A stretch of 29,951 nt of DNA from an uncultured Ruminococcus sp. (GTDB lineage Bacteria; Bacillota; Clostridia; Oscillospirales; Ruminococcaceae): assembly GCA_900752785.1 (NCBI GenBank), contig CAADWP010000038.1:1-29951 (forward strand), given 5' to 3'. Shown here in pieces: positions 2,284 through 25,519 of the stretch. Within the stretch, counting starts at the first letter, position 1. Each line of letters begins with the position of its first letter. A program made the translations under genes and the position numbers. The notes under the pieces are model-generated. The model made no database searches, was not told the DNA's origin, and saw only the letters and a list, made by a program, of their open reading frames with translations.

Positions 2284-2314
2284 TATTTCATTTTCAGGAG
2301 GTGATGATGATTGA

Positions 2315-3675: not shown

Positions 3676-3688
3676 GTAATGTCTTACC

Positions 3689-3761: not shown

Positions 3762-3785
3762 GATATGAGAAAGGAGTTTTTAAGA

Positions 3786-6387: not shown

Positions 6388-6392
6388 ACAGT

Positions 6393-7256: not shown

Positions 7257-7271
7257 TCGGAGGTGCAGCCT

Positions 7272-9249: not shown

Positions 9250-9263
9250 AGGAGGATTTATCT

Positions 9264-9626: not shown

Positions 9627-9655
9627 TTCCCCATATCCAGAGGACAAAAGACAGA

Positions 9656-9694
9656 GCATATCGGGCAGATCACTTCGTGGGCTGCCCGATATGC
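9656..9694 (+). terminator. Strong hairpin inside the transfer operon, terminator or RNA-processing signal
   Basis: GCATATCGGGCAG (9656-9668) and CTGCCCGATATGC (9682-9694) form a perfect 13-bp stem with a 13-base loop, followed by CCAATTTT. The T-tract is short, so partial termination or mRNA stabilisation of the pilin-like gene are both possible. Confidence 0.55.
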
Positions 9695-9719
9695 CCAATT
9701 TTAACAAGGAGGTGGTCGA

Positions 9720-10556: not shown

Positions 10557-10569
10557 GGGAGGTGCTATT

Positions 10570-11010
10570 TTGGAAGTCAAGATAAATAAAGAAATCCGTA
10601 ACTACACGGAGAGTATGTTTTTCGGACTGTCACTCAGGCAGTTCATTTTTTCTGTCCTTGCCTGCGGCGTGGCGGTTGGCTTATTCTTTCTGCTCCGCCC
10701 GCACTTTGGAACGGAAACGCTCAGTTGGGTGTGCATCTTAGGTGCGTTCCCCTTTGCGGCTATGGGCTTTATCAAGTACAACGGTATGACCGCCGAGCAG
10801 TTTGTCTGGGCGTGGATAAAGTCAGAGTTTCTGATGCCGAAAAAGATTGTATTTTTGCCCGACAATCTCTATTACGAAGCGTTGAAGCCGACCATTGAAG
10901 CCCACGAAAAGGGCTTGCCTGCCGTGCCAAAGAAGCAAAGGGCAAAAGCACAGAAGAAACCAAAGAAAGCAAAAAAGCGTAAGGAGGTAGACGATGTTAA
11001 AAACGCTTAG
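10570..11010 (+). CDS. PrgI family (VirB3-like) transfer protein
   Basis: The protein starts at TTG 10570 after GGGAGGTG. It begins EVKINKEIRNYTESMFFGLSLRQ and has two adjacent membrane helices (about residues 22-42 and 52-70), then FIKYNGMTAEQFVWAWIKSEFLMPKKIVFLPDNLYYE. This is the PrgI pattern. PrgI proteins act as the VirB3 partner of VirB4 at the membrane. The C-terminal tail is strongly basic (KKQRAKAQKKPKKAKKRK). The gene overlaps virB4 by 17 bases, as is typical for this pair. Confidence 0.88.
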   Translation: MEVKINKEIRNYTESMFFGLSLRQFIFSVLACGVAVGLFFLLRPHFGTETLSWVCILGAFPFAAMGFIKYNGMTAEQFVWAWIKSEFLMPKKIVFLPDNLYYEALKPTIEAHEKGLPAVPKKQRAKAQKKPKKAKKRKEVDDVKNA

Positions 11011-13327
11011 AAATCTGTTCAAGCAGGACAAGGATAAATTTGTTGTGCCGAAATCGGTGCAGAGCGTTATCCCGATAAAGACTATCTGGGCAGACGGTAT
11101 TTTCCTTGTCGGCAGCAACAAGTACGCAAAGACCTTTAAGTTTGAGGATATAAACTATACCGTGGCAAGCCGTGAGGACAAGGAAGCAATGTTCCTTGAA
11201 TACTCGGAGCTTCTCAACGCTCTCGACAGCGGTGCGACCACGAAAATCACAATCAATAACCGCAGGCTCAACAAAGCGGATTTTGAGCAGACCATTCTTA
11301 TTCCTATGTCCGATGACGGTCTGGATAAGTACCGCACGGAATACAACAAGATGCTGCTTGATAAGGCAACGGGGGCTAATTCTATTGTGCAGGACAAATA
11401 TGTGACGGTATCGGTCTGCAAAAAGAACATTGAGGAAGCACGGAACTACTTTGCCCGTGTGGGTACTGACCTTATCGCCCATTTCTCCAGACTCGGCTCG
11501 AAATGCACGGAGCTTGAAGCGGAAGAAAAGCTCCGTATCTTTCACGACTTCTACCGCACAGGAGAGGAAACGGCGTTCCGTTTTGATATGTCACAGACGA
11601 TGCGGAAAGGTCACGATTTTAAGGACTTCATCTGCCCCGATACCTTTGAGTTTGAAAAGGACTACTTCCGTATGGGCGACAGATACGGGCGTGTGATTTT
11701 TCTCAGGGAATACGCCGCTTATATCAAGGACAGTATGGTGGCGGAGCTTTGTGAGCTGAACCGTAATATGATGCTCTCGGTTGATGTTATACCCGTTCCC
11801 ACGGACGAAGCTGTGCGTGAGGTGGAAAACCGACTGCTCGGCGTGGAAACCAATATCACGAACTGGCAGAGGAAGCAAAACCAGAACAACAACTTTTCGG
11901 CGGTCATTCCCTATGACCTTGAACAGCAGCGAAAGGAAAGCAAGGAGTTTCTGGACGATTTGACGACCCGTGACCAGAGAATGATGTTCGCCGTGCTGAC
12001 AATGGTGCATACCGCCGATACCAAAGAGCGGCTTGACAATGATACGGAAGCCCTGCTCACGACAGCCAGAAAACATCTCTGCCAGTTCGCCGTGCTGAAA
12101 TATCAGCAGATGGACGGGCTGAACACGGCTCTGCCTTTTGGCGTAAGGAAGATTGATGCCCTGCGTACCCTGACAACGGAGAGCCTTGCGGTGTTCATTC
12201 CGTTCCGTGTGCAGGAAATCTACCATAAGGACGGCGTGTATTATGGACAGAATGTTATCAGCAAAAATATGATTATCGCCAACCGCCGCCATTTACTGAA
12301 TGGTAATTCTTTTATCCTCGGTGTGTCTGGTGCAGGTAAATCCTTTACGGCAAAGGAGGAAATGACGAATATCATTCTGACCGACCCCAACGCCGATGTT
12401 ATCATTATAGACCCAGAGCGTGAGTATTCGCCGCTTGTAAAGGCAATGCAGGGCGAGGTCGTCCACATCTCGGCAACGAGTGAAAACCATATCAACGCTA
12501 TGGATATGAACTCTGATTACGGTGACGGTGCAAACCCTGTCATCTTAAAATCAGAGTTTATTTTATCCCTTTGTGAGCAGCTCATCGGCGGGGCAAGTCT
12601 GGGGGCAAAGCAGAAATCCATCATTGACCGATGCACGGCAAGTGTGTACCGCTACTATCAGCAGGGCAACTATCAGGGAACGCCGCCGACCTTACAGGAC
12701 TTCCGTGAGGAACTTCTGAAACAGGATGAGCCAGAAGCAAAGGAAATCGCCCTTGCCATCGAGCTGTTTACAGACGGCTCTCTGAATACCTTTGCCAAGC
12801 ATACCAATGTGGACACCCACAGCCGTCTTATCTGCTATGACATTCTGGATTTGGGCAAGCAGTTACAGCCTATCGGTATGCTTGTGGTGCTTGACAGCAT
12901 CTTAAACCGTATCACGCAGAACAGAGCCAAAGGCAGAAATACTTTCATTTTCATTGATGAGATTTATCTGCTCTTTCAGCACGAATACTCTGCCAACTTC
13001 CTGTTTACCCTCTGGAAGCGTGTGCGTAAGTACGGTGCGTACTGTACGGGTATCACGCAGAATGTAGACGACCTTTTGCAGAGCCATACGGCAAGGACGA
13101 TGCTTGCCAATAGTGAGTTTATCATTATGCTCAATCAGGCATCGACTGACCGTATCGAGCTTGCCAAGCTCCTTAATATCTCCGACCTTCAGATGAGCTA
13201 TATCACGAATGTGGGTGCAGGTCAGGGGCTTCTAAAGGTCGGCAGTTCCCTTGTGCCGTTTGTCAATAAATTTCCACGCAACACAGAGCTTTACAGGCTG
13301 ATGACGACCAAGTTTGGGGAGGTGTAA
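10994..13327 (+). CDS. virB4: VirB4-like conjugative transfer ATPase (CD1110 type)
   Basis: This 777-residue protein carries Walker A GVSGAGKS (about residues 443-450) after ANRRHLLNGNSFIL. Walker B lies in NTFIFIDEIYLLF (about residues 650-662), and a TraC-like C-terminal helicase-fold segment follows (GITQNVDDLLQS, then LANSEFIIMLNQ). The N-terminal half (residues 1-400) is the VirB4 regulatory region and includes EYAAYIKDSMV. The full family length is present with no break. It powers assembly of, and transport through, the type IV channel from the cytoplasmic side. RBS AAGGAGG lies in the end of the PrgI gene. Confidence 0.95.
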   Translation: MLKTLRNLFKQDKDKFVVPKSVQSVIPIKTIWADGIFLVGSNKYAKTFKFEDINYTVASREDKEAMFLEYSELLNALDSGATTKITINNRRLNKADFEQTILIPMSDDGLDKYRTEYNKMLLDKATGANSIVQDKYVTVSVCKKNIEEARNYFARVGTDLIAHFSRLGSKCTELEAEEKLRIFHDFYRTGEETAFRFDMSQTMRKGHDFKDFICPDTFEFEKDYFRMGDRYGRVIFLREYAAYIKDSMVAELCELNRNMMLSVDVIPVPTDEAVREVENRLLGVETNITNWQRKQNQNNNFSAVIPYDLEQQRKESKEFLDDLTTRDQRMMFAVLTMVHTADTKERLDNDTEALLTTARKHLCQFAVLKYQQMDGLNTALPFGVRKIDALRTLTTESLAVFIPFRVQEIYHKDGVYYGQNVISKNMIIANRRHLLNGNSFILGVSGAGKSFTAKEEMTNIILTDPNADVIIIDPEREYSPLVKAMQGEVVHISATSENHINAMDMNSDYGDGANPVILKSEFILSLCEQLIGGASLGAKQKSIIDRCTASVYRYYQQGNYQGTPPTLQDFREELLKQDEPEAKEIALAIELFTDGSLNTFAKHTNVDTHSRLICYDILDLGKQLQPIGMLVVLDSILNRITQNRAKGRNTFIFIDEIYLLFQHEYSANFLFTLWKRVRKYGAYCTGITQNVDDLLQSHTARTMLANSEFIIMLNQASTDRIELAKLLNISDLQMSYITNVGAGQGLLKVGSSLVPFVNKFPRNTELYRLMTTKFGEV

Positions 13328-13331
13328 AGGT

Positions 13332-13736
13332 ATGGCAGATATTAAATTCAAAAGTGCGGCTCACCGTGATTTCTTTCTGGAAAATATGATGAAAAGCAGG
13401 GTCAACGACTGTTATCACAGGGCATTTTTCTATGTAATGGGAATTGCATCGGAAACGAGGGCAAACATTAACCAGATGTTTGACTTTAAGACCGACTGTA
13501 TTGTGCCAGAGGGTATGCACGGCGGTTGGCAGACAAGCGGAACGGTCAAGGTCTGCCACCTTGCTTTCAATCTCTGGAACGGATATGCGGAGGAAGGACG
13601 GGAACGGTTTTTCACGCCAGAGGAATTATTCTGCTGCGAGTTTGCCCCGTATTTTATGGAGGGCATTAAGGTCAGGTATCCCGAATATTGCAGGGAACTT
13701 CCCACACCAAAGCAGCAGACAGACAATGTTCGATAA
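13332..13736 (+). CDS. DUF6075-like protein of unknown function
   Basis: ATG 13332 follows GGGAGGTG that overlaps the end of virB4. The 134-residue soluble protein has the block DCYHRAFFYVMGIASETR and the block HGGWQTSGTVKVCHLAFNLWNGYAEEG, then FTPEELFCCEFAPYFMEGIKVRYPEY. These match what I remember of DUF6075. There is no known catalytic motif, but several conserved-looking His, Cys and Trp residues suggest a folded domain. It is a regular companion of VirB4 genes in clostridial elements. A role in transfer is only inferred from position. Confidence 0.7.
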   Translation: MADIKFKSAAHRDFFLENMMKSRVNDCYHRAFFYVMGIASETRANINQMFDFKTDCIVPEGMHGGWQTSGTVKVCHLAFNLWNGYAEEGRERFFTPEELFCCEFAPYFMEGIKVRYPEYCRELPTPKQQTDNVR

Positions 13737-13749
13737 CGAAATACCCTAC

Positions 13750-13779
13750 GGGCATACCATTATGCCCATAAAATGGGCA
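13750..13779 (+). promoter_or_regulatory. Two mutually exclusive hairpins before the sortase gene
   Basis: GGGCAT (13750-13755) can pair with ATGCCC (13762-13767), while the same ATGCCCAT (13762-13769) can pair with ATGGGCA (13773-13779). The second stem ends about 10 bases before the ribosome-binding site AAAGGAG of the sortase gene. No T-tract follows, so I favour an mRNA-level role over termination. Confidence 0.35.
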
Positions 13780-13801
13780 GGAACAAAGAAAGGAGCAATC
13801 A

Positions 13802-14575
13802 ATGAAAAAATATAAGATGCAGATTTGTGTAGCTGCCGCCGTACTGCTTTTCGCAGCGGCGGTTTTTTGCGGCTTTCAGGTGTATCACCACTATGCACAG
13901 GTGGACGAACAGACCGAAGCCTTTGAGCAGATAGCCGAGCTGGTGGAGCAGACCCCAGATACCGAGGGCGTTCCCGATGATACCCCTGTCAGCGAGGGCG
14001 AAGATGTGCTTGCAAAGTATAAGGAGTTGTATTTGCAAAACGAGGATATGGTCGGTTGGATTTCTATTGCCGGCACGACAGTCAATTATCCCGTGATGCA
14101 GACACCCAATGACCCCAACTTTTATCTGAAGCACAACTTTGAAAAGGCGTACAGCGATTTGGGAGTGCCGTATATCCAAGAGGACTGCGACCTTGCCGCA
14201 AGCGATAATCTTATTATTTACGGACACCACATCAAAGGGCAAAAGATGTTCGGGGCGTTGGAGAGCTACAAGGACAAGGACTTTTATGAGGAACACAAGA
14301 GCATTCAGTTTGATACCCTGACCGAGCAGGCAGAGTATGAAATCGTAGCCGTGTTCAAGACCGTTGCGTACAGCTCCGAGGGCTTCCGCTACTATGACTT
14401 TGTAGATGCCGAGGACGAGAAAGCCTTTGACGAGTATGTAAGCAAGTGCAAGGAGTTTGCCCTGTATGATACGGGCGTGACCGCCGAATACGGTGACAAA
14501 CTCATTACTCTTTCCACCTGCGAATATTCCGCACAGAACGGCAGGCTTGTGGTGGTAGCAAAAAAGATTGCCTGA
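13802..14575 (+). CDS. srtB: Class B sortase
   Basis: The 257-residue protein has an N-terminal membrane anchor (residues 6-27), an acidic linker, and the sortase fold from about residue 68 (LYLQNEDMVGWISIAGTTVNYPVMQ). Catalytic residues are visible: His142 in IIYGHHIKGQ, Cys240 in LSTCEY and Arg248 in NGRLVVVAKK. Spacing and the QNxDxVGWIxI start are typical of class B. Sortases join surface proteins to peptidoglycan; here the substrate may be an ICE-coded surface protein outside the window. RBS AAAGGAG lies 8 bases before ATG. The gene sits between DUF6075 and the wall hydrolase, in line with cell-envelope work during mating. Confidence 0.92.
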   Translation: MKKYKMQICVAAAVLLFAAAVFCGFQVYHHYAQVDEQTEAFEQIAELVEQTPDTEGVPDDTPVSEGEDVLAKYKELYLQNEDMVGWISIAGTTVNYPVMQTPNDPNFYLKHNFEKAYSDLGVPYIQEDCDLAASDNLIIYGHHIKGQKMFGALESYKDKDFYEEHKSIQFDTLTEQAEYEIVAVFKTVAYSSEGFRYYDFVDAEDEKAFDEYVSKCKEFALYDTGVTAEYGDKLITLSTCEYSAQNGRLVVVAKKIA

Positions 14576-14608
14576 CTGCTCCAGAGCTTGTAAGAAAGGA
14601 GGGCTTCT

Positions 14609-16384
14609 ATGGCAGATATAAAAACCAGAGATGCGGTCAAAGGTACGATAAAGACCATAGACAAAGCCGCCGTTGCTTCCGAGCGAATGAAATCCGCTTA
14701 TGCCAAGACAAAGGATAAAGCGGAACAAGGGTATTATGCGGACGAAAGCTCTGCCACCGAGTACGCTGCCGACAGAGTTTCCTGTGCTTCCGAGCGTGTG
14801 ACCGAGGAAGGCGTACACCAATTCAATAAACAGGGTCAGAAAAGTATTCAGACCACACAGGAGAATATCGGAAAGACAAAGGACAAGATTGCCGATTTCA
14901 AGCAAAAGCGGGCTGCCAAAGCCGCCGAGCAGAGAATGGAAAGGAATATGTCAGAACAACACGGCTTGCAGATCCGTCACGGAACTGCAAGCCGTTCTGC
15001 TGCTCCCGATATGCCCCAGAGTGGGAAAAGCCAGCTCATAAAGACCCGTCAGCAAAGCAGGAAAACCATTAAGACCACCGCCCGAAATGCAGAAAAGGCG
15101 GTAAAGTCTACGGCGAAAGGCTCGGTCAAAACAGCCGAAAGAGGTGTAAAAACCGCACAGGCTACCTCTAAGGCAACAATCAAAACTGCCGAGCAGACGG
15201 CAAAGGCAACGAAAGAAGCGGCAAAGGCTTCTGCGAAAGCCGCCCAGAAAGCGGCACAGGCGGCAAAAGCCACCGCAAAGGCAACTGCGGAAGCAACCAA
15301 AACAGCGGTCAGAGACACGATTGCAGCAGTCAAGGTGATTATCGCAGGAACAAAGGCTCTTATCTCTGCTTTGATAGCAGGCGGTTGGGTTTCTGTTGTG
15401 ATAATTTTGATTGTTGTCCTCTTTGGTTGTGCCGTTTCTCTGTTCGGCGGTGGTGGCGGCAGCAATGCCTATACGCCTGTCAGTGCGGAGGTGGAAGCCT
15501 ATGAGCCATTGATACAGAAATATGCCAAGCAATACGGTATCCCTGAATATGTTGAGCTTATCAAGGCGGTGATGATGCAGGAAAGCGGCGGGCGTGGGCT
15601 TGACCCGATGCAGGCGGCGGAGGGAAGTTTTAATACACGCTATCCCCACGAGCCGAATGGTATCCAAGACCCTGAATATTCAATCCAATGCGGCGTACAG
15701 GAATTAAAGGCAGCCCTTATCTCTGCGGAAGTGGAAAATCCGATTGATATGGAGCATATCAAACTTGCCTTGCAGGGCTATAATTTTGGAAACGGCTATA
15801 TCTCGTGGGCGAAAACCAACTACGGCGGTTATTCCTATGCAAATGCGGTAGAATTTTCCACCATGCAGGCACAACGGTTAGGGTGGGAAAGTTACGGCGA
15901 CACACAGTATCCCGCCCATGTGTTACGCTATTACCCGTATGGACGGGCGTTCACAAGCGGCGGCAATCAGGCAATCGTGGAGGTCGCCCTGACACAGCTC
16001 GGTAATGAGGGCGGTCAGCCCTATTGGTCGTGGTACGGCTTTGACAGGCGTGTGGAATGGTGTGCCTGCTTCGTATCGTGGTGTGCCGACCAGTGCGGCT
16101 ATCTGGACAGCGGTATTGTGCCGAAATTTGCAGGCTGCGTAGATGGGGCAAATTGGTTTAAAGGCAATGGGCAATGGCAAGACCGAAACTATGAGCCGAC
16201 AGCAGGTACTATCATCTTTTTTGATTGGGAGAACGACGGAGAAACCGACCATGTAGGTATTGTGGAGAAATGTGAGAACGGTGTTGTTTATACCGTTGAG
16301 GGTAACTCAGGAGATGCTTGCAGACAAAACCAATACAGTGTTGGAAGCAGCTCAATTTATGGTTATGGTATCCCTGCTTATTAA
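14609..16384 (+). CDS. Membrane-anchored lysozyme-like plus CHAP cell-wall hydrolase
   Basis: This 591-residue protein has three parts. Residues 1-245 are a highly basic Ala/Lys/Thr-rich region that is probably long helix (repeated KATAKAT, KAAQKAAQ patterns). A membrane helix follows at about 250-278 (ALIAGGWVSVVIILIVVLFG). The outer part has a lysozyme-like domain (about 290-410) with the likely catalytic Glu in MMQESGGRG. After it comes a CHAP amidase/endopeptidase domain (about 450-591) with Cys in VEWCACFVSWC (about residue 484) and His in TDHVGIVE (about residue 547). It corresponds to the VirB1/CwlT-type enzymes that open the peptidoglycan for the transfer channel. It is the last gene of the transfer operon here and is followed by a bidirectional terminator. 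Confidence 0.92.
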   Translation: MADIKTRDAVKGTIKTIDKAAVASERMKSAYAKTKDKAEQGYYADESSATEYAADRVSCASERVTEEGVHQFNKQGQKSIQTTQENIGKTKDKIADFKQKRAAKAAEQRMERNMSEQHGLQIRHGTASRSAAPDMPQSGKSQLIKTRQQSRKTIKTTARNAEKAVKSTAKGSVKTAERGVKTAQATSKATIKTAEQTAKATKEAAKASAKAAQKAAQAAKATAKATAEATKTAVRDTIAAVKVIIAGTKALISALIAGGWVSVVIILIVVLFGCAVSLFGGGGGSNAYTPVSAEVEAYEPLIQKYAKQYGIPEYVELIKAVMMQESGGRGLDPMQAAEGSFNTRYPHEPNGIQDPEYSIQCGVQELKAALISAEVENPIDMEHIKLALQGYNFGNGYISWAKTNYGGYSYANAVEFSTMQAQRLGWESYGDTQYPAHVLRYYPYGRAFTSGGNQAIVEVALTQLGNEGGQPYWSWYGFDRRVEWCACFVSWCADQCGYLDSGIVPKFAGCVDGANWFKGNGQWQDRNYEPTAGTIIFFDWENDGETDHVGIVEKCENGVVYTVEGNSGDACRQNQYSVGSSSIYGYGIPAY

Positions 16385-16391
16385 GAAAAGG

Positions 16392-16434
16392 GGCAAAAGA
16401 AAAACCAGAGGTTTAATCCTCTGGCTCTTTTGCC
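16392..16434. terminator. Bidirectional terminator between the transfer operon and the XRE gene
   Basis: CCAGAGG (16405-16411) pairs with CCTCTGG (16418-16424), and GGCAAAAGA pairs outside it with TCTTTTGCC. The A-rich left flank and the T-rich right flank let it serve both strands. It overlaps the last codons of the minus-strand XRE gene. Confidence 0.75.
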
Positions 16435-16772
16435 TTACATAGTCCGTTTACCGTTGCTTCTATGACGGAAAGCTCTTTATCGTCTAATTTGTTGAGCTGT
16501 GCGTCTAAGCGTCTGCGGACAGAACTTTTTTCGACTTCTTTATTTGGAAATATGTACTCGTCAACAGACACATCGAACATCGTAATAAGCTGGATAAACA
16601 GCTCAATACTTGGATACTGCCCCTCGTTTTCGATAGATTGAATGTGTCTGGGAGCATAGCCGATTATGCCAGATAGCTGCTCCCTTGTCATCCCTTTGGC
16701 TTCACGGGCTTTTTTAATTGCCTGCCCAATCGGCGTGAAATCAAAGTCAAAATGATTGTTCCTTTCGTCCAT
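16413..16772 (-). CDS. XRE/Cro-type transcriptional regulator
   Basis: The 119-residue protein has a helix-turn-helix domain at about residues 12-68 (IGQAIKKAREAKGMTREQLSGIIGYAPRHIQSIENEGQYPSIELFIQL), the classic XRE layout. A C-terminal helical tail follows, probably for dimerisation. It is the only minus-strand gene in the element part and is transcribed away from the sigma/ABC module. The start at 16772 faces a 230-base intergenic region that holds an 11-bp inverted repeat, its likely operator. I infer that it represses itself and the divergent module. The inducing signal is not visible. Confidence 0.88.
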   Translation of the reverse strand: MDERNNHFDFDFTPIGQAIKKAREAKGMTREQLSGIIGYAPRHIQSIENEGQYPSIELFIQLITMFDVSVDEYIFPNKEVEKSSVRRRLDAQLNKLDDKELSVIEATVNGLCKAKEPED

Positions 16773-16847
16773 TAGCTTACCACCTATCCTCTGAAAATCT
16801 TACCTTTATATTTTACAGAGATGTGGCTTCTGATTAAACGATGCGAA

Positions 16848-16888
16848 ATCTCTTGCAACGAGAGATAAAATATCCTATTGCAAGAGAT
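16848..16888. promoter_or_regulatory. Inverted-repeat operator, probably for the XRE regulator
   Basis: ATCTCTTGCAA (16848-16858) and TTGCAAGAGAT (16878-16888) are exact reverse complements, with centres 30 bases apart (about three helical turns). Each half ends in a TTGCAA box followed by GAGATAAAA or CGAGAGATAAAA, so the half-sites also read as a direct repeat. It lies between the XRE start and the forward promoter. Confidence 0.6.
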
Positions 16889-16937: not shown

Positions 16938-17077
16938 AATAAAACGTGTTTGAGTTCATTCACATAATTCGAGAATAAAAATTTTGATTTGGACTATCCT
17001 TTTATGTGTTTCAATCGTTATACATTATAGAACGGGATAAAGATTTTGAACTTCTAATAATGGGAAAGGAGGATTTT

Positions 17078-17623
17078 GTGCAAAATGATTTTCTACTAAT
17101 CAGAAAAATGAAAAAAGGTGATGATGATGCACTTGATTTATTTGTCCACAAATATTATCAAGACATTTTAAACTATTGTCATTATCATTGCTCTGATAAA
17201 ACGTATGCAGAAGATTTGGCACAGGAAACCTTTGTACATTTTTTCTCAAAATTATCTGATTATCATTATAGGGGAAAAACCTTGAATTACTTATATACGA
17301 TAGCCAGCAATCTGTGTAAAGATTATTTGAAGAAAATAAAGGAGATACCTCTGGAAGAAAATGAAATAGTGGAAGAAAACCAAATGGAAAATATTCTGAA
17401 TAAAATTTTGGTAGAGCAGGCTTTAAAGCAATTACCAGTTGAATTATGTGAAGTACTTACACTTTATTATTTTCAAGAGTTAAAACTTACAGAGATTTCC
17501 GACACATTACAAATAGGACTTCCTCTGGTAAAATATCGTTTACGAAAGGCGAAAATTCAGTTGGAGGAAGTTTTGAGAAAGGAGGAATATGATGAATTTG
17601 GAAGAAAGAATGAAAATGTATAA
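17078..17623 (+). CDS. ECF-like sigma-70 family sigma factor
   Basis: I prefer GTG 17078, which follows AAAGGAGG by 6 bases; the frame opens earlier at 17006 without a good ribosome-binding site. The 181-residue protein has a region 2 (FVHKYYQDILNYCHYHCSDKTYAEDLAQETFVHFFSKL, about residues 22-60) and a region 4 helix-turn-helix (LKLTEISDTLQIGLPLVKYRLRKAK, about residues 133-158). There is no region 3, so it is of the ECF type. It overlaps the next gene, a membrane protein in the usual place of an anti-sigma factor. It likely directs expression of its own cluster in response to an envelope signal. That target is inferred. Confidence 0.88.
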   Translation: MQNDFLLIRKMKKGDDDALDLFVHKYYQDILNYCHYHCSDKTYAEDLAQETFVHFFSKLSDYHYRGKTLNYLYTIASNLCKDYLKKIKEIPLEENEIVEENQMENILNKILVEQALKQLPVELCEVLTLYYFQELKLTEISDTLQIGLPLVKYRLRKAKIQLEEVLRKEEYDEFGRKNENV

Positions 17624-18353
17624 GGAATCTGTACAAGTCAAATCTAAAGAAGAAAAAATACAGGAAACAATCTGTAAATCAAAAAATGCCTTTTTTATGG
17701 CAGAACAAGAACGAACGCTTTCTTACCACGAATTTTTATGGACACAGCTTCGTGTGATACAAAAAAGATGGTGGGTTCTTCAATTTATGCTTCTGGTAGC
17801 GTTATGGATTGCCTTAAGTTCTATCCATGATGAAATATATATTAAAAGAAGCATGGGTGTAGCAGCGGCACTGTTTGTAATCCTTATTATTCCCGAATTG
17901 TGGAAAAACAGGTCATGTGAGTGCATGGAAATCGAAGCAGCCTCATATTATTCGCTTAAACAAGTATATGCAGCGCGCATGTTATTATTTGGCGTTACAG
18001 ATGTTTTTTTGATTACTCTGTTTTTAGGAACCGCTTCGGCAGGGTTGAACATTGGGTTGTCAGAATTAGTTGTTCAATTTCTTTTTCCGCTTTGTGTTAC
18101 TTCTGGTATCTGTTTTGGAATCTTATGCAGTAAATATTCATTCAGTGAAACAGTTGCTATTATTCTGTGCGTTATATGGAGTGCAGTATGGCTTTTTGTT
18201 GTTTTGAATGAAAATGTATATACAATGGTAACTATTCCTGTTTGGTTAGCTTTACTGGGAGCAACAATACTTTTTCTTATTCTTACTGTATGCCGTATTT
18301 TAAAGAACTGTAATCAATATTTGGAGGTGTCACTTGATGAAATTAGAACTTGA
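17592..18353 (+). CDS. Multi-pass membrane protein, candidate anti-sigma factor or ABC permease partner
   Basis: I do not recognise a named family. ATG 17592 (a second ATG is at 17589) follows AAAGGAGG within the sigma gene. The first ~55 residues are charged and cytoplasmic. At least five hydrophobic segments follow (about residues 62-80, 88-102, 130-155, 160-180, 185-205 and 212-235), with a Cys/Glu-containing loop (RSCECMEIEAASYYSLKQVYAARML). Overlap with the ECF sigma gene suggests it holds the sigma factor at the membrane. Overlap with the ABC ATPase gene suggests it may be part of that transporter. Either role is an inference; the two are compatible. Confidence 0.6.
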   Translation: MNLEERMKMYKESVQVKSKEEKIQETICKSKNAFFMAEQERTLSYHEFLWTQLRVIQKRWWVLQFMLLVALWIALSSIHDEIYIKRSMGVAAALFVILIIPELWKNRSCECMEIEAASYYSLKQVYAARMLLFGVTDVFLITLFLGTASAGLNIGLSELVVQFLFPLCVTSGICFGILCSKYSFSETVAIILCVIWSAVWLFVVLNENVYTMVTIPVWLALLGATILFLILTVCRILKNCNQYLEVSLDEIRT

Positions 18354-19224
18354 TGGTTTAACAAAAGAATTTGGTGATTTTACGGCTGTAAATCATATAG
18401 ACCTTACTATGACAAACGGTGTATATGGTCTTTTAGGCGTAAACGGAGCAGGAAAAACAACCTTGATGAGAATGCTGTGTACCTTACTAAAGCCTACAAG
18501 CGGAACCATATATTGTAATGGGAAAGATATTTTTAGTATGGATAGCGAATACCGTAAACTGTTGGGATATTTGCCGCAGGAATTTGGATTCTACCCCGAA
18601 TTTACCGTAGAGGACTATTTACTTTATATTGCAGCCTTGAAAGGAATCCGTCCTGTTGTCGCAAAAAAACGTGTAAAAGAGTTAATTGCTAAGGTTGGTC
18701 TTTCAAAGGTAGCAAATAAAAAAATGAAAAAATTATCTGGCGGTATGAAGCGCAGGGCAGGAATTGCACAGGCTATGTTGAACAACCCGAAGATTCTGAT
18801 ACTTGACGAACCGACGGCAGGGCTTGACCCGAATGAAAGAATTAGATTCCGAAATTTGATTAGCGAACTTTCAGAGGACAGATTAGTATTATTATCCACA
18901 CATATTGTTTCTGATATTGAATATATAGCCAATGAAATTTTGTTGATGAAAGACGGAAAACTTATGCACAAAGGAACCGCAGACGAAATAATAAATTCTA
19001 TGACGGAAACGGTCTGGGAATGTTTTGTGGAAAAGAACATGGTATCTGATTTTATGAAAAAGTATAAAATTTCAAATATGAAATCAGAAGCAGACGGTGT
19101 TATCTTAAGAATTATTTCCCATGAAAAACCATTTGTAAATGCCCAAAGCGTAGAAGCTTCGTTAGAAGATGTATTCTTATATTATTTTGGAGAGAAGGCA
19201 GGTGATGAAAATGCTGCGATTTGA
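18337..19224 (+). CDS. ABC transporter ATP-binding protein
   Basis: ATG 18337 is preceded by TTGGAGGTG. The 295-residue protein has Walker A GVNGAGKTT (about residues 34-42), Q-loop YLPQEFGFYPEF, signature LSGGMKRR (about residue 134), Walker B LILDEPTAGLDP, and H-loop LLSTHIVSD, all intact. The C-terminal ~80 residues follow the ABC-2 exporter type (CcmA/BcrA-like) with LEDVFLYYFGE at the end. It would energise the permease encoded next. It overlaps both neighbours. The transported substrate cannot be read from the sequence; antibiotic-peptide export or target protection is one possibility. Confidence 0.93.
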   Translation: MKLELDGLTKEFGDFTAVNHIDLTMTNGVYGLLGVNGAGKTTLMRMLCTLLKPTSGTIYCNGKDIFSMDSEYRKLLGYLPQEFGFYPEFTVEDYLLYIAALKGIRPVVAKKRVKELIAKVGLSKVANKKMKKLSGGMKRRAGIAQAMLNNPKILILDEPTAGLDPNERIRFRNLISELSEDRLVLLSTHIVSDIEYIANEILLMKDGKLMHKGTADEIINSMTETVWECFVEKNMVSDFMKKYKISNMKSEADGVILRIISHEKPFVNAQSVEASLEDVFLYYFGEKAGDENAAI

Positions 19225-20416
19225 AATAAAAAAGGTGTTTTCTAAAACTAAAAACAGGATAACAATTATAGTTTTGCTTGTGATACTTATTGCGACCAGT
19301 ATTTTAACGATTAACAGAGTTGAGTATGTTGACGAAAGCGGGAATCATTTAACAGGTATTTCGGCAGCAAGAAACCTTAGAGAAGCCAAAAACGAATGGT
19401 CAGGCTACCTGACGGAGGACGTTTTCCAAAACGTTCTTGAAGAAAACAGAAGTATTAACAATGAAGCATCATCAGATAGCATTGAGGAAGAAAATAAGAG
19501 ATTTGCAAAGAAACAGGGGATTTCAACAATCAGAGATGTTATCAATTATGCGTTTAGCGAATACAGAGATTATAATGATTTTGCCATTGATAACATTTCT
19601 GATGATGAAGCCAGCACTGTCTATGAAAGAAGAATTTCTACTTTAAAAGAATATCTTGATTCTGGAGAAGAAACATTTACAGAAAAAGAAAAAAGTTTTC
19701 TGATTCAGCAATATGAAAATTTAGATACACCTTTTTATTATGAATATATGGACGGTTGGTCAGCATTACTGCAAAACATATCAACATTTATACTGATTTT
19801 GGCATTAGTGATAGGTTTTTTTGTGTCTGGAATATTTTCAGACGAATTTCAGACAAAAGCGGATTCCATTTTCTTTTCAACCAGATTAGGAAGAAATAAA
19901 GGTGTTCTATCAAAAATAGGGGCGGGTCTTACGATTGTTTCAGCTTTCTATGCAGCTTTTGTATTTTTATATACGTTTATTGTCCTTTCGGTGTTGGGAA
20001 CAGATGGAGCAAACTGTCCGATTCAGTTAGATTTATGGAGAAGTGCATATAATGTGACATTTTTACAGGCATATTTGCTGATTGTGGCAGGTGGTTATAT
20101 TGGCACATTGTTCGCTTCCATGTTAGCAATGCTGGCTTCGGCTCTGACACGTTCTACACCAACTGCAATCATTGTACCCTTTATTATATTATGTGCATTT
20201 CCGTTTTTAAGCAGAATTATTACTTTACCGGGATTATGCTCTTTCTTCCCTGACCAGTTATTAGAAATTTATTTGGATATTAAAGAAGCTGGACTTGTAA
20301 CATTGGGAGGTAAAGTAACAACAATAGCAACCGTTATTGTTCCTGTATATGCCGTGATATGCTTGATTCTTCTACCTATACTGTATAAGGTCTACAAAAA
20401 AACGGAGATAAAATAA
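19205..20416 (+). CDS. ABC-2 type transporter permease
   Basis: I choose ATG 19205 (another lies at 19211), giving about 403 residues and a 20-base overlap with the ATPase gene. One membrane helix lies near the N-terminus (TIIVLLVILIATSILTI). A large extracytoplasmic domain of about 140 residues rich in acidic and polar residues follows. The C-terminal half has about five more helices, starting at LLQNISTFILILALVIGFFVSGIF. This is the layout of ABC-2 permeases with a long first external loop. Such permeases can sense or export cell-wall-active peptides. It ends at TAA directly before the VanY-like gene. Confidence 0.85.
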   Translation: MKMLRFEIKKVFSKTKNRITIIVLLVILIATSILTINRVEYVDESGNHLTGISAARNLREAKNEWSGYLTEDVFQNVLEENRSINNEASSDSIEEENKRFAKKQGISTIRDVINYAFSEYRDYNDFAIDNISDDEASTVYERRISTLKEYLDSGEETFTEKEKSFLIQQYENLDTPFYYEYMDGWSALLQNISTFILILALVIGFFVSGIFSDEFQTKADSIFFSTRLGRNKGVLSKIGAGLTIVSAFYAAFVFLYTFIVLSVLGTDGANCPIQLDLWRSAYNVTFLQAYLLIVAGGYIGTLFASMLAMLASALTRSTPTAIIVPFIILCAFPFLSRIITLPGLCSFFPDQLLEIYLDIKEAGLVTLGGKVTTIATVIVPVYAVICLILLPILYKVYKKTEIK

Positions 20417-21121
20417 ATGAAGCGATATACAAGACGAAAAAGCTATAAAGTGAAAATATTATTTAGCCTGCTGTTTTTAATAATCTTGTGTATGATGGCA
20501 GGCAAGGTACTTAATTCAGATTTTACATTACTCCCTCTTGATAACATAACACATCATGTTGCCAGTGGGGATAATGGTTGGAATCTGATTCTTGTAAATC
20601 GCAATAGTTATATTCCTGATGATTATAAAGTAGAACTTACAGAATTATCAAATGGGGAAAAAGTAGATTCCAGAATTTATCCAGAATTGCAGGAAATGTT
20701 TAATGACGCAAGGGCGCAAGGGTATGGTTTATTTGTCAGAGAGGGGTATAGGACGCAGGAAGAACAACAGCAGCTATTGAACGAAAAGATAGAAGCGTAT
20801 GAAAATGAAGGAAAATCGAAGTCCGAAGCGAAAAAACTTGCAGAGCAATGGGTGGCAATTCCTGGAACCAGTGAACATCAGTTAGGAATTGCGGTTGATA
20901 TAAATGCTGACACTACAAAAAGTTCAAGTGATGATGTATATAGCTGGCTTGCGGAAAATGCTCATAAATATGGCTTTATAAAGCGTTACCCCTCAGATAA
21001 AACAGATATAACTGGTGTCATAAACGAACCTTGGCATTATAGATATGTTGGAAAAGAAGCCGCTTTGGAAATATATTCTCAGGGAATGTGTTTAGAGGAA
21101 TATATAGATACGCTGGAATAG
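20417..21121 (+). CDS. VanY-like D-alanyl-D-alanine carboxypeptidase (M15B)
   Basis: The 234-residue protein has an N-terminal anchor (residues 12-30) and an M15 peptidase domain. Zinc ligands and the catalytic base are visible: GTSEHQLGIAVDI (His154, Asp161) and NEPWHYRYVG (Glu204, His207). FVREGYRTQEEQQQL supplies the usual Arg. Enzymes of this type remove the last D-Ala from peptidoglycan precursors or cross-bridges outside the membrane. The start codon comes right after the permease stop, so it is in the same operon. No vanH/A/X genes lie nearby, so it should not be read as glycopeptide resistance by itself. Envelope remodelling with the ABC exporter is more likely. Confidence 0.9.
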   Translation: MKRYTRRKSYKVKILFSLLFLIILCMMAGKVLNSDFTLLPLDNITHHVASGDNGWNLILVNRNSYIPDDYKVELTELSNGEKVDSRIYPELQEMFNDARAQGYGLFVREGYRTQEEQQQLLNEKIEAYENEGKSKSEAKKLAEQWVAIPGTSEHQLGIAVDINADTTKSSSDDVYSWLAENAHKYGFIKRYPSDKTDITGVINEPWHYRYVGKEAALEIYSQGMCLEEYIDTLE

Positions 21122-21678: not shown

Positions 21679-21743
21679 CGTGTCGCTTTTTGTAAAAACG
21701 CAGGACAAGCCTAATTCTGGCGTTGGATGCCGTTCACCGCCTG

Positions 21744-21775
21744 CCAATCTGAATTTTTCAAAAAATTCAGATTGG
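21744..21775 (+). promoter_or_regulatory. Perfect 15-bp palindrome reaching into the ribosome-binding site of the sigma-like gene
   Basis: CCAATCTGAATTTTT (21744-21758) and AAAAATTCAGATTGG (21761-21775) are exact reverse complements separated by CA. The last two G of the right arm are the first two bases of the GGAGG site (21774-21778) that serves the GTG start at 21787. As RNA this would be a stable hairpin that limits ribosome access. Confidence 0.65.
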
Positions 21776-21786
21776 AGGAAACAGAA

Positions 21787-22251
21787 GTGTTTGACAACAC
21801 AAATCCCTATACAATCCGTTTCGAGGAAACGGACGGCAGAAAACGCTACTTTGTAGCATTTACAGATGGGCAGGGTAACTTCCGAGAAACAGAGGTTTCA
21901 AAGGCTGTTTATATGGAGTTTTGCCACTTTATCAAGCGTGAGCGTAATCTTCGCAGGTCTGATGAAAGGCATTTGGAGCAATCGGAACTGACCGAGGAAA
22001 CGCTTTGCAGACGGGCGGTACATAAGCCAAAGCCTGTTGACGATGCGGTAAACGATAATATCCGAATGGAACGGCTCAACCGAGCAATTATGGAACTGCC
22101 CGAAATACAAAAGCGGCGGTTTATGCTCCACTTCGATTTAGGCTTAACCTATGAGCAGATTGGAGCTATGGAGGGCTGTACGAAAATGCCTATCAAGCGT
22201 TCTATTGACAGGGCGATTGAAAAAATTCGCCTTGCATTAAAAAACTTTTGA
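21787..22251 (+). CDS. Sigma-70 region 4-like regulator (Tn916 ORF7-like)
   Basis: GTG 21787 follows GGAGG by 8 bases. Codons upstream in the same frame run through the palindrome and are unlikely to be translated. The 154-residue protein has an N-terminal part with TIRFEETDGRKRYFVAFTDGQGN and a C-terminal helix-turn-helix of sigma region 4 type (ELPEIQKRRFMLHFDLGLTYEQIGAMEGCTKMPIKRSIDRAIEKIR). It lacks region 2, so it is a partial sigma factor like those that control excision and transfer genes in Tn916-like elements. The leader mini-ORF, terminator and palindrome upstream suggest tight post-initiation control. Confidence 0.8.
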   Translation: MFDNTNPYTIRFEETDGRKRYFVAFTDGQGNFRETEVSKAVYMEFCHFIKRERNLRRSDERHLEQSELTEETLCRRAVHKPKPVDDAVNDNIRMERLNRAIMELPEIQKRRFMLHFDLGLTYEQIGAMEGCTKMPIKRSIDRAIEKIRLALKNF

Positions 22252-22282
22252 TTTTTAGGGGCTACTTATAGCTTCTGAGTGT

Positions 22283-22321
22283 GGAAACAGGTGAAGGGAT
22301 AAAAACCTTTGCCTGTTTTCC
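22283..22321 (+). terminator. Hairpin after the sigma-like gene, likely terminator
   Basis: AAACAGG (22285-22291) pairs with CCTGTTT (22312-22318), with an inner AAGG/CCTT pair, followed by TCCTTTG. The T-run is weak. Confidence 0.5.
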
Positions 22322-22367
22322 TTTGTGTGGCGAAAACGGGATTGCACCTTGAAAACTGAATACCCAT

Positions 22368-22816
22368 TCGCCAAATACTTCCTCTTTGTGATTGTGATGA
22401 GCATAAGCGTGTGTAGCGATACGCCAAGACCTGCCGATTAGCAGAAAGCGTTGAAAGGTGGTGAGCGAGTAACTATCGACTCAAAATATCGGGCAGCTCC
22501 CGATTTCGCCATAACCCACAAAGAGCATAATGGTACTCCCGTCCAGTCATAGTCCGAGCGTGATTAAACCGTCGCAGGCAATGAGGGCGGCTCTGTCAGA
22601 ACGACAGTTGGGGTGGAACCCCCGTGGCGTCAGTTAGCTGCTGACCGTTTGGCGACTTCCCTGCGTGTTATAACGCATTGCATTTCGGGGTGTCGAGGAC
22701 AAATTGAAATGCTCCTATCATAAAGCCAAACGCAAGGCGGTCTATGGAAACAGAGTTTTGTTTTATGCTCTCCCGACCTTAAATACTTCCTTGTGTTTGG
22801 CTGCCTACATAGGCAG
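22368..22816 (+). ncRNA. Gene-free region with many nested stems: candidate structured RNA or mazF leader
   Basis: The 600 bases between the sigma-like gene and mazF have no convincing ORF but hold many perfect complementary arms. These are TCGCCAAA (22368-22375) with TTTGGCGA (22648-22655), closing a ~290-nt domain; CTCTTTGTG (22382-22390) with CACAAAGAG (22517-22525); and ATCGGG with CCCGAT (22488/22499). Three short hairpins then stand in a row: CTGTC/GACAG at 22593, GGGG/CCCC at 22610 and GTCAG/CTGAC at 22629. After them come GCATTTC (22680) with GAAATGC (22706), and AGCCAAACGCAAGG (22724) with CCTTGTGTTTGGCT (22789), which has one G-U pair. CTGCCTA/TAGGCAG (22801-22816) competes for the end of the last stem. 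I do not recognise a known RNA class. The strand is inferred from the neighbouring genes. Confidence 0.5.
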
Positions 22817-22853
22817 AAATCTCTTGCCTAAATTCAGATAGGAGGTCAAACAA

Positions 22854-23222
22854 ATGGAGAAAACGATTAAGCGTGGGGATATTTACTACGCAGAACTTAA
22901 CCCCGTTATCGGCTCGGAGCAAGGAGGTACACGCCCTGTACTTATCATTTCTAATGATATAGGAAACAGGCATAGCCCCACGGTTATCGTTGCCGCTATC
23001 ACGAGCCGAGTACACACAAAGGCAAAGCTGCCCACCCATACTGCTATCAGAGATTTTGAGGGTCTTAACAAGGACTCTATTATTTTGCTTGAACAGATAC
23101 GTACTATTGATAAGAAGCGTTTACAGGAATATATCGGTATGCTTTCCGAAAGTGAGATGGCAAGAGTTGATAAGGCTCTTGCCATTAGCGTTTCGCTGAA
23201 CATACTAAAAGGTACAAATTGA
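22854..23222 (+). CDS. MazF/PemK-type endoribonuclease toxin
   Basis: The 122-residue protein begins [47 protein letters not shown] and continues [31 protein letters not shown]. This is the full MazF/NdoA (PemK) fold with the RP-V-I and T/S-S active-site blocks. MazF cleaves mRNA at short sites. RBS AGGAGG lies 9 bases before ATG, and CCTA/TAGG (22827/22839) may fold over it. No MazE-like antitoxin gene is adjacent on either side. The antitoxin may be elsewhere, or the protein may be controlled through the unusual leader RNA. A terminator follows. Confidence 0.9.
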
Positions 23223-23257
23223 TGATTTCATAGAAATTCGCACATTGGTCATTTGAT

Positions 23258-23292
23258 GGCTGTACTTCTATAATTGAGGTACAGCCGTTTTA
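23258..23292 (+). terminator. Terminator after mazF
   Basis: GGCTGTACTTC (23258-23268) pairs, with one G-U pair, with GAGGTACAGCC (23276-23286), followed by GTTTTAATTT. Confidence 0.8.
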
Positions 23293-23311
23293 ATTTAGCG
23301 GAGGTAGACAG

Positions 23312-23464
23312 ATGGAAGATGTAAAAGTATCTAATGGTGCAGATTGCCAACTTGAACAAAAATGTGACGAGAAAGAACGATTTGACAAATTTATGAATGT
23401 GATGGTGCAAATCGTAGAAAAGTACGGGCAGTCAGTTTTGCAGGATTTAGATTGTGTTGCGTAG
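23312..23464 (+). CDS. Small acidic protein of unknown function (50 aa)
   Basis: ATG 23312 follows GCGGAGGTAG with normal spacing. The frame encodes 50 residues (MEDVKVSNGADCQ, later FDKFMNVMVQIVEKYGQSVLQDL), acidic and probably helical, with three cysteines. I do not recognise it. It sits 55 bases before the recombinase gene, so it could be a recombination accessory, an orphan antitoxin or a non-essential reading frame. Its stop codon lies inside a perfect hairpin. Confidence 0.5.
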   Translation: MEDVKVSNGADCQLEQKCDEKERFDKFMNVMVQIVEKYGQSVLQDLDCVA

Positions 23465-23475
23465 AAATACGCAAC
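23456..23475. promoter_or_regulatory. Perfect 8-bp hairpin before the recombinase gene
   Basis: GTTGCGTA (23456-23463) and TACGCAAC (23468-23475) flank a GAAA loop. No T-tract follows. The GNRA-type loop suggests an RNA structure or protein site upstream of the recombinase ribosome-binding site. Confidence 0.45.
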
Positions 23476-23518
23476 CTTACATAGAAACATTTTCCTATAT
23501 TTATTATGGAGGTGCAAT

Positions 23519-25465
23519 ATGAACAGAGAAGGAAAAAAGTGCGTTCTGTATCCAAGAGTTAGTACAGAAATGCAGGTTGATGGATATAGCCTTGAGGGTC
23601 AGAAAAACGGATTAAAACGATTTGCAGACCGAGAAGAAATGGAGATTGTCGGCATTTATGAGGATGCAGGAAAGTCGGGAAAATCTATTGAGGGTCGCCC
23701 TGCGTTTAAGAAAATGCTTTCTGATATTGGGAATGGATTGGAAATAGATTATATTCTGGTATATAAACTTTCCCGATTTGGCAGAAATGCAGCAGACATA
23801 TTAAATTCATTAGAGTATGTGCAATCCTACGGCGTAAATCTGATTTGCATTGAAGAAGGGATTGACTCATCACAGACAAGCGGCAAACTGTTAATATCTG
23901 TCCTTTCTGCTGTTGCTGAAATTGAAAGAGAGAATATTATCGAGCAGACGATGAATGGTCGCAGAGAAAAAGCAAGACAAGGCGGTTGGAATGGCGGATT
24001 TGCTCCGTATGGATATTATTTGAAAGACAATCAGCTTTTAATAGAAGAAAGTGAAGCGGCGGCTATTCGCATTATATTTGAGAAATTTGCAGGCTCGGAT
24101 ATAGGGTACGGCGGTATCGCTAAATATCTTAATTTGCAAGGAATAAAGAAAATACCCCGACAGAATGGTACTTTGGAAAATTGGAGTGGTCATCTGGTGA
24201 GGCAGATATTAGACAATCCTGTTTATTGTGGCAAAATTGCTTATGGTAGAAGAACAAGGGAAAAAGTTAAAGGCACGAAAAATGAATATAAGCAGGTACA
24301 CGCCGAAGATTATATATTAGAGGACGGGCAGCACGAAGGTATTGTCAGCGAGGAATTATGGCAAAAAGTTCACGCTAAGCGTGTAGCTACGGGAATAAAG
24401 CAACCGTCCAAAACAGGTAAGGATAGGTCGCACCTTTTAACTGGTGTGTTGAAATGCCCTCTTTGTGGAAGCCCGATGTATACCAATAAGCACGCTTGGA
24501 CAAATAAGGACGGCACATATAAAGAAGTGTACTATTATATTTGTGGCAGAAATAAGCAGGAGCGTGGTCATTATTGTGAGTACAAAGCATCGCTAAGAAA
24601 AACAGATATAGAGCCGCTTGTTATCGAAGCAATTAGAGAGTTAGTAAGTGATAAGAGCTTTGCAAAGGAAATTAAAAAACGATTTGGTGTCCAGACCGAT
24701 ACGAGCAAAATAGATAAGGAGCTTGCAAATTATGAAAGTAAGTTGAAAGAGGTTGATTTGAACAAAGCCCGTTTGGAACGGGAAATTGACAATCTTCCTG
24801 CTGATGCAAAATATCGGGAACGAAAAATCCACGATATGACAATAAGACTTGATGGACTGTATGACACAATAGTGGAGTTGGAAGAACGAATTGAAGATGC
24901 AAAATTGCGAAGAAGCTCTATTGAGATGGAAGCAATCACGCTTGAGAATGTTTACAGAATTATGGAGAACTTCAGCAAACTTTATGCTATAATAAGTGAC
25001 GAGGAAAAGAAAAGCCTTGTTTCCTATCTGATTAAAGAAATTCAGATATACCCTAACGGCACATCAGACAGGATTTTGAAGTCGATAGAGTTTAATTTTC
25101 CGATTTATCGTGACGGACGGGAGATAAGGAAACTTTTGTGGGAAAACGGTAATACCGTTGAGACGGTATGTCAGTTAGTTCTGAGAAATCCGGTAACACA
25201 TATCAACATTGATGTGGACGTAGAGGAACTGGTGCAGGATAAGAGAGGGGCGGCAACCTATGGGCAGATCAAGGATTACGTTCTTGAACATAGCGGCTTG
25301 AAGGTCAGCAGCTTGTATATCGCACAGGTAAAGCAGAAATGCGATATTATTGAACGTGAGAATTATAATAAATCAAAATCAGAGGATGCCAAGCAGCCGC
25401 AATGCCCGCCGGAAAAAGAAGTAGCTATTATGGAAGCATTACGATACTATGGAATGATCAAATAA
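23519..25465 (+). CDS. Large serine recombinase (integrase/excisionase of the element), C-terminus fused to an RlmD-like tail
   Basis: The 648-residue frame starts at ATG 23519 after TGGAGGTG. It has a resolvase-type catalytic domain with nucleophile Ser15 in YPRVSTEMQ, and YKLSRFGRNAADIL and EIERENIIEQT further on. A recombinase domain follows from about residue 150 (GGFAPYGYYL). A zinc ribbon lies at about 313-360 (CPLCGSPMYTNKH, then CGRNKQERGHYCEY), and a coiled-coil region at about 400-490. This is the TndX/TnpX group, which integrates and excises conjugative transposons. TndX has 533 residues. Here the recombinase proper seems to end near residue 545-550, after IEFNFPIYRDGREIRKLLWE. The remaining ~100 residues look like the end of the host methyltransferase RlmD, read through the att junction. 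Confidence 0.93.
   Translation: MNREGKKCVLYPRVSTEMQVDGYSLEGQKNGLKRFADREEMEIVGIYEDAGKSGKSIEGRPAFKKMLSDIGNGLEIDYILVYKLSRFGRNAADILNSLEYVQSYGVNLICIEEGIDSSQTSGKLLISVLSAVAEIERENIIEQTMNGRREKARQGGWNGGFAPYGYYLKDNQLLIEESEAAAIRIIFEKFAGSDIGYGGIAKYLNLQGIKKIPRQNGTLENWSGHLVRQILDNPVYCGKIAYGRRTREKVKGTKNEYKQVHAEDYILEDGQHEGIVSEELWQKVHAKRVATGIKQPSKTGKDRSHLLTGVLKCPLCGSPMYTNKHAWTNKDGTYKEVYYYICGRNKQERGHYCEYKASLRKTDIEPLVIEAIRELVSDKSFAKEIKKRFGVQTDTSKIDKELANYESKLKEVDLNKARLEREIDNLPADAKYRERKIHDMTIRLDGLYDTIVELEERIEDAKLRRSSIEMEAITLENVYRIMENFSKLYAIISDEEKKSLVSYLIKEIQIYPNGTSDRILKSIEFNFPIYRDGREIRKLLWENGNTVETVCQLVLRNPVTHINIDVDVEELVQDKRGAATYGQIKDYVLEHSGLKVSSLYIAQVKQKCDIIERENYNKSKSEDAKQPQCPPEKEVAIMEALRYYGMIK
25145..25175. other. 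Predicted attachment site (attR) at the element-chromosome boundary
   Basis: The palindrome AACGGTAATACCGTT (25145-25159) is followed by GAGACGGTATGT (25160-25171). The second part encodes ETVC, which fits the HVETVC motif close to the end of the RlmD catalytic domain. Serine recombinases of conjugative elements commonly integrate next to their own gene, and rumA/rlmD is a known ICE target. The exact crossover cannot be placed without the left end. Confidence 0.5.
25160..25465 (+). pseudogene. rlmD: Displaced 3' fragment of host rlmD (rumA), in frame with the recombinase
   Basis: The last ~100 codons of the recombinase frame do not resemble a recombinase. They read VETVCQLVLRNPVTHINID, ATYGQIKDYVLEHSGLKVSS, LYIAQVKQKC and QPQCPPEKEVAIMEALRYYG, which I recognise as the extended C-terminus of the 23S rRNA (uracil-1939-C5)-methyltransferase in Clostridia. 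Insertion of the element would have cut the host gene here. The 5' part with the catalytic domain should lie at the other end of the element, outside the window. Whether the host enzyme keeps function through a tail supplied by the element cannot be seen. Confidence 0.6.
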
Positions 25466-25472
25466 TGCTTTT

Positions 25473-25519
25473 GAGAAACCGCTGTGTGGCTAAGGTCATG
25501 CGGCGGTTTTCTCTGTTTG
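25473..25519 (+). terminator. Terminator after the recombinase/rlmD tail
   Basis: GAGAAACCGC (25473-25482) pairs with GCGGTTTTCTC (25503-25513) with one bulged T, followed by TGTTTG. It is probably the original rlmD terminator. Confidence 0.65.

Follow-up and report, generated by a model that had tools for sequence, protein, structure and literature searches.

The closest described system is canT of Tn916 (Wirachman and Grossman 2024), which according to its authors acts in cis and in one orientation only, is processive, is effective on foreign terminators, works without other Tn916 genes and does not act in trans (PMC11658703). Processive antitermination by a nascent RNA is likewise reported there for put of HK022, EAR of B. 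subtilis eps and conAn of pLS20, in the last of which the RNA acts with a protein (PMC11658703). The main text of the canT report contains no mention of pemK, Rfam, boxA, NusB or Tn1549, and its authors regard the reading of activity from predicted structures as complicated (PMC11658703). A further point of comparison is the boxA of rRNA operons, the NusB/S10 site, which is discussed in PMC4807359 mainly for Rho-dependent termination.

The window analyzed here is the whole stretch of 29,951 nucleotides from an uncultured Ruminococcus sp., and the region of interest (22252-22853) lies between two genes of the plus strand, the strand of all features described below unless stated otherwise. Upstream is a gene for a sigma-70 region-4 protein (21790-22251; Pfam Sigma70_r4_2, 4e-07; ORF listed from 21727), in the same position as orf7/orf8 in Tn916; downstream is mazF/pemK (22854-23222; Pfam PemK_toxin, 5.3e-38), directly upstream of which there is no ORF of at least 60 aa as a candidate antitoxin. 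The large serine recombinase of the element (23519-25465; Pfam Resolvase, Recombinase and Zn_ribbon_recom) follows, and the interval that separates it from mazF, downstream of the RNA, holds a terminator-like hairpin (23255-23289; 14-bp stem, -21.9 kcal/mol, z -6.8). Another such hairpin, with a T-poor tail, stands after the recombinase gene (25475-25510; 16-bp stem, -27 kcal/mol, z -6.9). A 50-aa ORF (23312-23464) between mazF and the recombinase has no Pfam match and has a relative at the same place in the similar element L001; small ORFs occur before other recombinases as well. Between the transfer genes and the right end, the window carries a cargo (17006-21121) with an ECF-type sigma factor, an ABC transporter and a VanY-family carboxypeptidase, for which no blastn match of at least 150 nt was found in the otherwise similar L001 element.

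An earlier note on this DNA had described the region as gene-free and strongly structured, and this observation was right. There is no ORF of at least 60 aa on either strand of 22252-22778, and only the end of an antisense ORF (22779-23039) reaches the 3' part of the region. The minimum free energy of 22252-22853 was -211.5 kcal/mol, compared with a shuffle mean of -175.4 (z -4.84; none of 20 shuffles as good), and eight perfect Watson-Crick arm pairs of at least 8 nt were found, compared with a shuffle mean of 2.1 (reached in none of 200 shuffles). The excess is modest at a minimum of 7 nt (13 observed, reached by 11 of 200 shuffles) and weak at a minimum of 9 nt (two observed, reached by 14 of 200). 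The further suggestion of a new non-coding RNA of conjugative elements stands as regards a structured non-coding RNA with compensatory changes; it is not new as a sequence family, since Rfam RF02913 covers a part of it and canT of Tn916, described in 2024, is a homologue.

The Rfam search envisaged in the earlier note gave RF02913 at 22527-22627 (41.2 bits; gathering cut-off 34.8), the sole match at the gathering threshold in the whole window. To our knowledge, this family, named "pemK", is without a known function. Its model has 61 positions, to which three covarying pairs were added before release 15 according to PMC11701678, and the box, the helices P1 and P2 and the 3' hairpin described below lie outside it. 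By blastn, 22527-22626 is 82% identical to positions 4001-4100 of the pCF10 locus (L081), of which 4001-4101 scores 55 bits with RF02913. The pMG2200 locus (L084) scores 57.8 bits, and its element, which carries vanB genes, is presumably of the Tn1549 type. Among the 20 plasmid matches listed of 31 records, 10 match the core stretch of about 100 nt at 82% and nine match at 75-81%, and one covers 22569-22704 at 71%; among four phage records, two match the core stretch at 82%, a third covers some of that stretch, and the fourth (H21), aligned from its own first base on, is 78% identical to 22640-22848. No RF02913 match was found in the 49,999 of 65,774 nt of pLS20 that were scanned. In pCF10, the core stretch lies between a helix-turn-helix gene and an excisionase gene, which we take to be orf8 and xis of a Tn916-type element (names partly from PMC11658703).

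The core thus identified is 82% identical to the heart of canT. The canT(S3) mutation changes the ATA at nt 283 after the orf8 stop (PMC11658703). With the pCF10 copy taken as the Tn916 sequence, the orf8 stop ends at L081 3718, so that S3 corresponds to 4001-4003, the three bases (ATA) with which the RF02913 match opens, and canT(delta162) corresponds to 3947-4108 and takes out the whole core. The start of the core, AUAAUG(A/G)UACU, is unpaired in the Rfam model and is the part hit by S3 in Tn916. Both mutations are reported to lower conjugation about 100-fold and to leave less than 5% in a 452-bp reporter (PMC11658703). According to the same report, S3 had little or no effect in a 400-bp canT fragment and some shorter fragments were active too (PMC11658703), which we count against a settled view of what S3 breaks. 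The likeness to canT extends beyond the core (82% identical, S3 site included): both RNAs lie between sigma-like genes and the recombination module in the same orientation, and both have a box, P1 and P2 in the same order. They differ in what comes next, which is mazF and a serine recombinase in the window and xis/int in Tn916, and the window RNA has an extra 3' module.

A common plan was drawn from an alignment of 23 mazF-type sequences, window included (A1), compared with Tn916: box, P1 5' arm, P2 5' arm, hairpins, P2 3' arm, core, hairpin and P1 3' arm. In the window, the boxA-like sequence CCTTGAAAACTGAATA (22347-22362) stands 180 nt before the core and 5 nt before P1, the helix that closes the domain (22368-22376/22647-22655). 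Within P1 lies P2 (22382-22390/22517-22525), whose 3' arm stands one nt ahead of the core, with internal hairpins at 22407-22424 and 22488-22504 (each with 99.3% of cells paired in A1, the second with one pair changed on both sides); a third hairpin (22629-22645; 99.3% of cells paired) connects the core to the P1 3' arm. In Tn916, P1 is AGTAATCGAATA/TGTTCGATTGCT (L081 3860-3871/4115-4126) and P2 is CGATAAGAA/TTCTTATCG (3877-3885/3990-3998), with arm letters unrelated to those of the window. We know of no earlier description of this plan of box, P1 and P2 around the RF02913/canT core.

A1 goes back to 80 mazF loci, in 62 of which the core was recognized by pattern; 15 had no accepted match, the matches in three (L009, L046 and L063) were judged spurious, and eight of these 18 core-less loci have about 300 nt or less before mazF. 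Nine box-less loci were left out, and 23 of the 24 non-redundant rows were kept (L077, at 51% identity, was removed). In the resulting structure, 98.8% of 1691 cells are paired, compared with 38-50% in slid versions, a contrast that favours the structure because it was derived from A1 itself. The compensatory changes for which the earlier note had proposed to look are present: 11 pairs changed on both sides, compared with a shuffle mean of 5.3 (none of 500 shuffles reached 11), and one P1 pair occurs as GC in 12 rows, AU in 10 and GU in one. The helix that the note had placed around a domain of about 290 nt is P1, which proved real and conserved (100% of cells paired; P2, 99.5%). Measured by this yardstick and with gaps taken as unpaired, the 14-bp stem that it had proposed (22328-22341/22498-22511; 77% of cells) and the competing 7-bp hairpin (22328-22334/22367-22373; 79.5%) are not conserved helices. 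The 9-bp arms at 22522-22530/22763-22771 (68%, gaps again unpaired) were likewise rejected as a conserved helix.

Support independent of A1 is provided by the pairing of P1 and P2 between clusters. From the 106 of 152 rows with a box score of at least 14/16, by a consensus fitted to these data, 35 clusters were selected for presence of the box and few shared 8-mers, with arms that differ in letters; the other 46 rows lie outside this comparison. The mean contiguous helix score was 8.67 for P1 and 7.76 for P2, compared with 6.21 and 5.84, respectively, for the best of 2000 partner permutations, in anchored windows chosen after the duplexes had been viewed. Within these short windows, single clusters exceeded the 95th percentile of swaps in 20/35 cases for P1 and 22/35 for P2, with weak P1 in L151 (score 4), L129 (5) and L152 (6) and weak P2 in L123 (5.5). 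RNAduplex energies alone separate weakly, the own partner beating 95% of swaps in 11/35 clusters for P1 and 5/35 for P2. For canT, this comparison offers a fold that is backed by co-variation between clusters.

The box of the window shares 14 of 16 bases with the box of the rRNA operons in L176 and L202, which may not be those of the host. In L176 this type of box (TGTACCTTGAAAACCGCATA) lies in the rRNA operon between 5S and 23S, and in L202 it follows 16S and 5S; in the window, a closed RNA domain follows instead. When the rRNA box was used as an outside query, a match of at least 12/16 was found upstream of the core in 24 of 59 clusters, whereas shuffles predict 0.75. In eight genomes, all known holders of RF02913, a degenerate form of the box occurred 46 times, compared with two occurrences of its reversed control. 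Of the 30 box places that were fetched, 13 have the core downstream by pattern and two lie in rRNA operons. The box was absent or poor (below 12/16) in the other 35 of the 59 clusters, including that of pMG2200, and the 452-bp canT fragment, which is active, lacks the TGTTCT side of the 16-nt box, its first base (L081 3844) lying two bases into it; these two observations argue against a strict need for a full boxA. Recruitment by the box of the host Nus factors used on rRNA is plausible but unproven. The same box is also found at L177 1501-1515 (with copies in L182, L192, L196 and L197) ahead of a GC-rich stretch that holds, as read in L177, GATACTTCC and GGGGGGAACCC. No RF02913 match was found in L177 or L182, and these loci may represent a diverged class of the same RNA.

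Matches to RF02913 above the cut-off came from 95 of 293 genomes sampled in the class, from 22 of 299 sampled in the phylum and from none of 14 controls (the centre genome G001 being counted in both the class and the phylum samples), with up to 12 matches in one genome. Gene context was read from the 58 best-scoring matches of the class and phylum samples (L115-L172), which were not chosen for mazF and in which near-duplicates were kept; a script selected the neighbouring ORFs, considering just the RNA strand (55 first downstream, 47 second downstream and 52 upstream), and the families overlap. Of the 52 upstream ORFs, at least 26 are sigma-like (Sigma70_r4_2). The first downstream ORF was HTH_17 in 12 of 55 loci, Resolvase in 10, PemK in six, ParA-type in five, TnpW in four and Tn916-Xis in three; the second was Resolvase in 15 of 47, Phage_int_SAM_5 in 12, Phage_integrase in seven and ParB in five. 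As PemK accounts for only six loci and Xis-like and recombinase genes are more frequent, MazF is one of several neighbours.

This context bears on the idea, raised in the earlier note, of a switch-like leader for the toxin, taken here as one that would control mazF only, by attenuation or a hidden ribosome-binding site, with the 3' stem as a possible switch. The family is typed "Cis-reg" in Rfam, and the 3' part of the window RNA has elements that would suit such a role: CTCCTATC (22712-22719) can pair with GATAGGAG (22837-22844), the Shine-Dalgarno sequence of mazF, as a perfect 8-bp pairing in eight of 23 aligned rows including the window (GU allowed), and the stem of the 3' module (22725-22801; helix 10 of A1) has 97% of cells paired and four pairs changed on both sides. 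A small hairpin in two parts (22810-22830; 96.4% and 93.7% of cells paired) stands ahead of the ribosome-binding site of mazF. However, the Shine-Dalgarno pairing is kept in 64.7% of cells (gaps taken as unpaired), the 3' stem is not universal among homologues and is missing in L028 and L054 despite the presence of mazF in both, and only in the six of 55 sampled loci mentioned above, a minority, does the RNA precede the toxin to which the family owes its name. Since the same RNA precedes other genes in most of the sampled elements, a toxin switch as its main role is unsupported, and we consider a leader devoted to mazF unlikely. The Shine-Dalgarno pairing and the 3' module could act as an added local layer of control on mazF translation.

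It is very unlikely that the region is a stand-alone small RNA or a DNA-level site for recombination or replication, a reading to which its strong fold and its position near the recombinase might point. By the account of its authors, canT is active in a single orientation and has no effect in trans (PMC11658703), and both in the window and in Tn916 the RNA is read towards the recombination genes. No promoter-like site is listed on the plus strand of 22200-22700, and this includes the stretch near 22330-22370 where the earlier note had proposed to look for a promoter. In addition, GU pairs are kept in P1 and P2, which favours RNA over a DNA site.

ToxN-type type III toxins share the MazF fold. 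Together with the lack of an ORF of at least 60 aa between the sigma-like gene and mazF that could be a protein antitoxin, this fold would suit an RNA antitoxin (type III-like) binding the neighbouring toxin, yet that reading is hardly credible, as there are no tandem repeats in 21700-23300, the RNA is conserved in elements without an adjoining mazF (PemK in 6/55) and shows no regular linkage to the toxin, and in Tn916 it is reported to be an antiterminator (PMC11658703). On the gene context and the absence of tandem repeats, the toxin-specific switch and the RNA antitoxin were both rejected.

Transcription of the transfer genes in these elements can be considered from the opposite end, the left end of the window's own element lying outside the window. 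The L001 element shares 94% identity with positions 1-1257 of the window, 91% with 2244-11557, 90% with 11558-16848 and 94% with 22290-25167. At its left end, a host methyltransferase gene, whose frame continues into the element, is followed by two terminators (the first of 13 bp) with a small ORF between them, and then by parA and parB. A host gene at the boundary was sought only in L215, where an RNA uracil methyltransferase gene (7474-9153, minus strand) adjoins a related element and its frame continues into the element. Elements in G005, G006 and G591 are collinear with the window at 76-86% identity and have parA at the same side. Strong terminators with a T tail in the direction of transfer were found within 1.3 kb before parA in all four collinear elements (two, two, two and one), an arrangement that resembles T1 in Tn916. 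A further parA locus (L219) has one; it is counted apart, since it lacks collinearity with the window and only about 5 kb separate its parA from the RNA of G002. Altogether, the five parA regions hold eight strong terminators, compared with four on the opposite strand, which are weaker, and with 0.1 for each shuffled region; the L224 and L219 regions are not independent, as they are 87% alike over the last 400 nt. An excess of sense terminator-like hairpins was not seen in the 1.3 kb downstream of the RNA (28 sense, 37 antisense and 6 shuffled in 59 clusters). In L086, L093, L118, L124, L125, L127 and L128, a parA-like gene follows RF02913 at a distance of about 200 nt. Genes of this kind stand first at the left end of related elements, so that end may carry the RNA too.

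Taken together, we estimate with a probability of roughly 85%, judging from sequence comparison, that the region codes for a cis-acting RNA of the canT type, a processive antiterminator situated at the right end of an integrative conjugative element, and the best reading is that this antiterminator is tied to no particular downstream gene. The homology of the core to canT of Tn916, the conserved fold, the varied gene context and the terminators before parA in relatives support this interpretation, whereas a terminator-like hairpin of 15 bp that stands after the sigma-like gene and ahead of the box (22283-22320; -21.9 kcal/mol, z -5.1; tail not a clean T run) counts against it. Transcription would begin upstream of the sigma-like gene and copy the RNA at 22347-22655; the nascent RNA would fold into box, P1, P2 and core and stay with the elongating polymerase, which would then ignore terminators. 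In the integrated element, read-through would reach only mazF, the recombinase and what comes after, and in the excised circle, the transcript from the right end would cross the joined ends and the left-end terminators into parA, parB and the transfer genes. As the transfer region of the relatives is headed by parA with terminators before it, such an RNA would have to overcome them. We infer that the RNA of the window is active, is transcribed from upstream and contacts the polymerase, and, more tentatively, that the Nus factors which the host uses on rRNA are recruited through its boxA-like sequence.

A wider hypothesis, which we consider possible but rather doubtful, is that the RF02913 class as a whole consists of processive antiterminators in which a boxA copied from the host rRNA signal loads NusB/S10 and the P1-P2-core structure makes the complex resist intrinsic terminators. 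If true, an RNA alone would do the job of the lambda N protein, with an rRNA antitermination signal borrowed from the host, and the boxA-like sequence opens such a mechanism by host factors to direct testing. The core of an experimentally shown antiterminator belongs to an RNA family that takes its name from a toxin gene, a link that was not found stated in our literature search, which did not extend to the paper that named the motif. Our analyses suggest that the coupling of transfer genes to excision by a terminator and an antiterminator is common in Clostridia.
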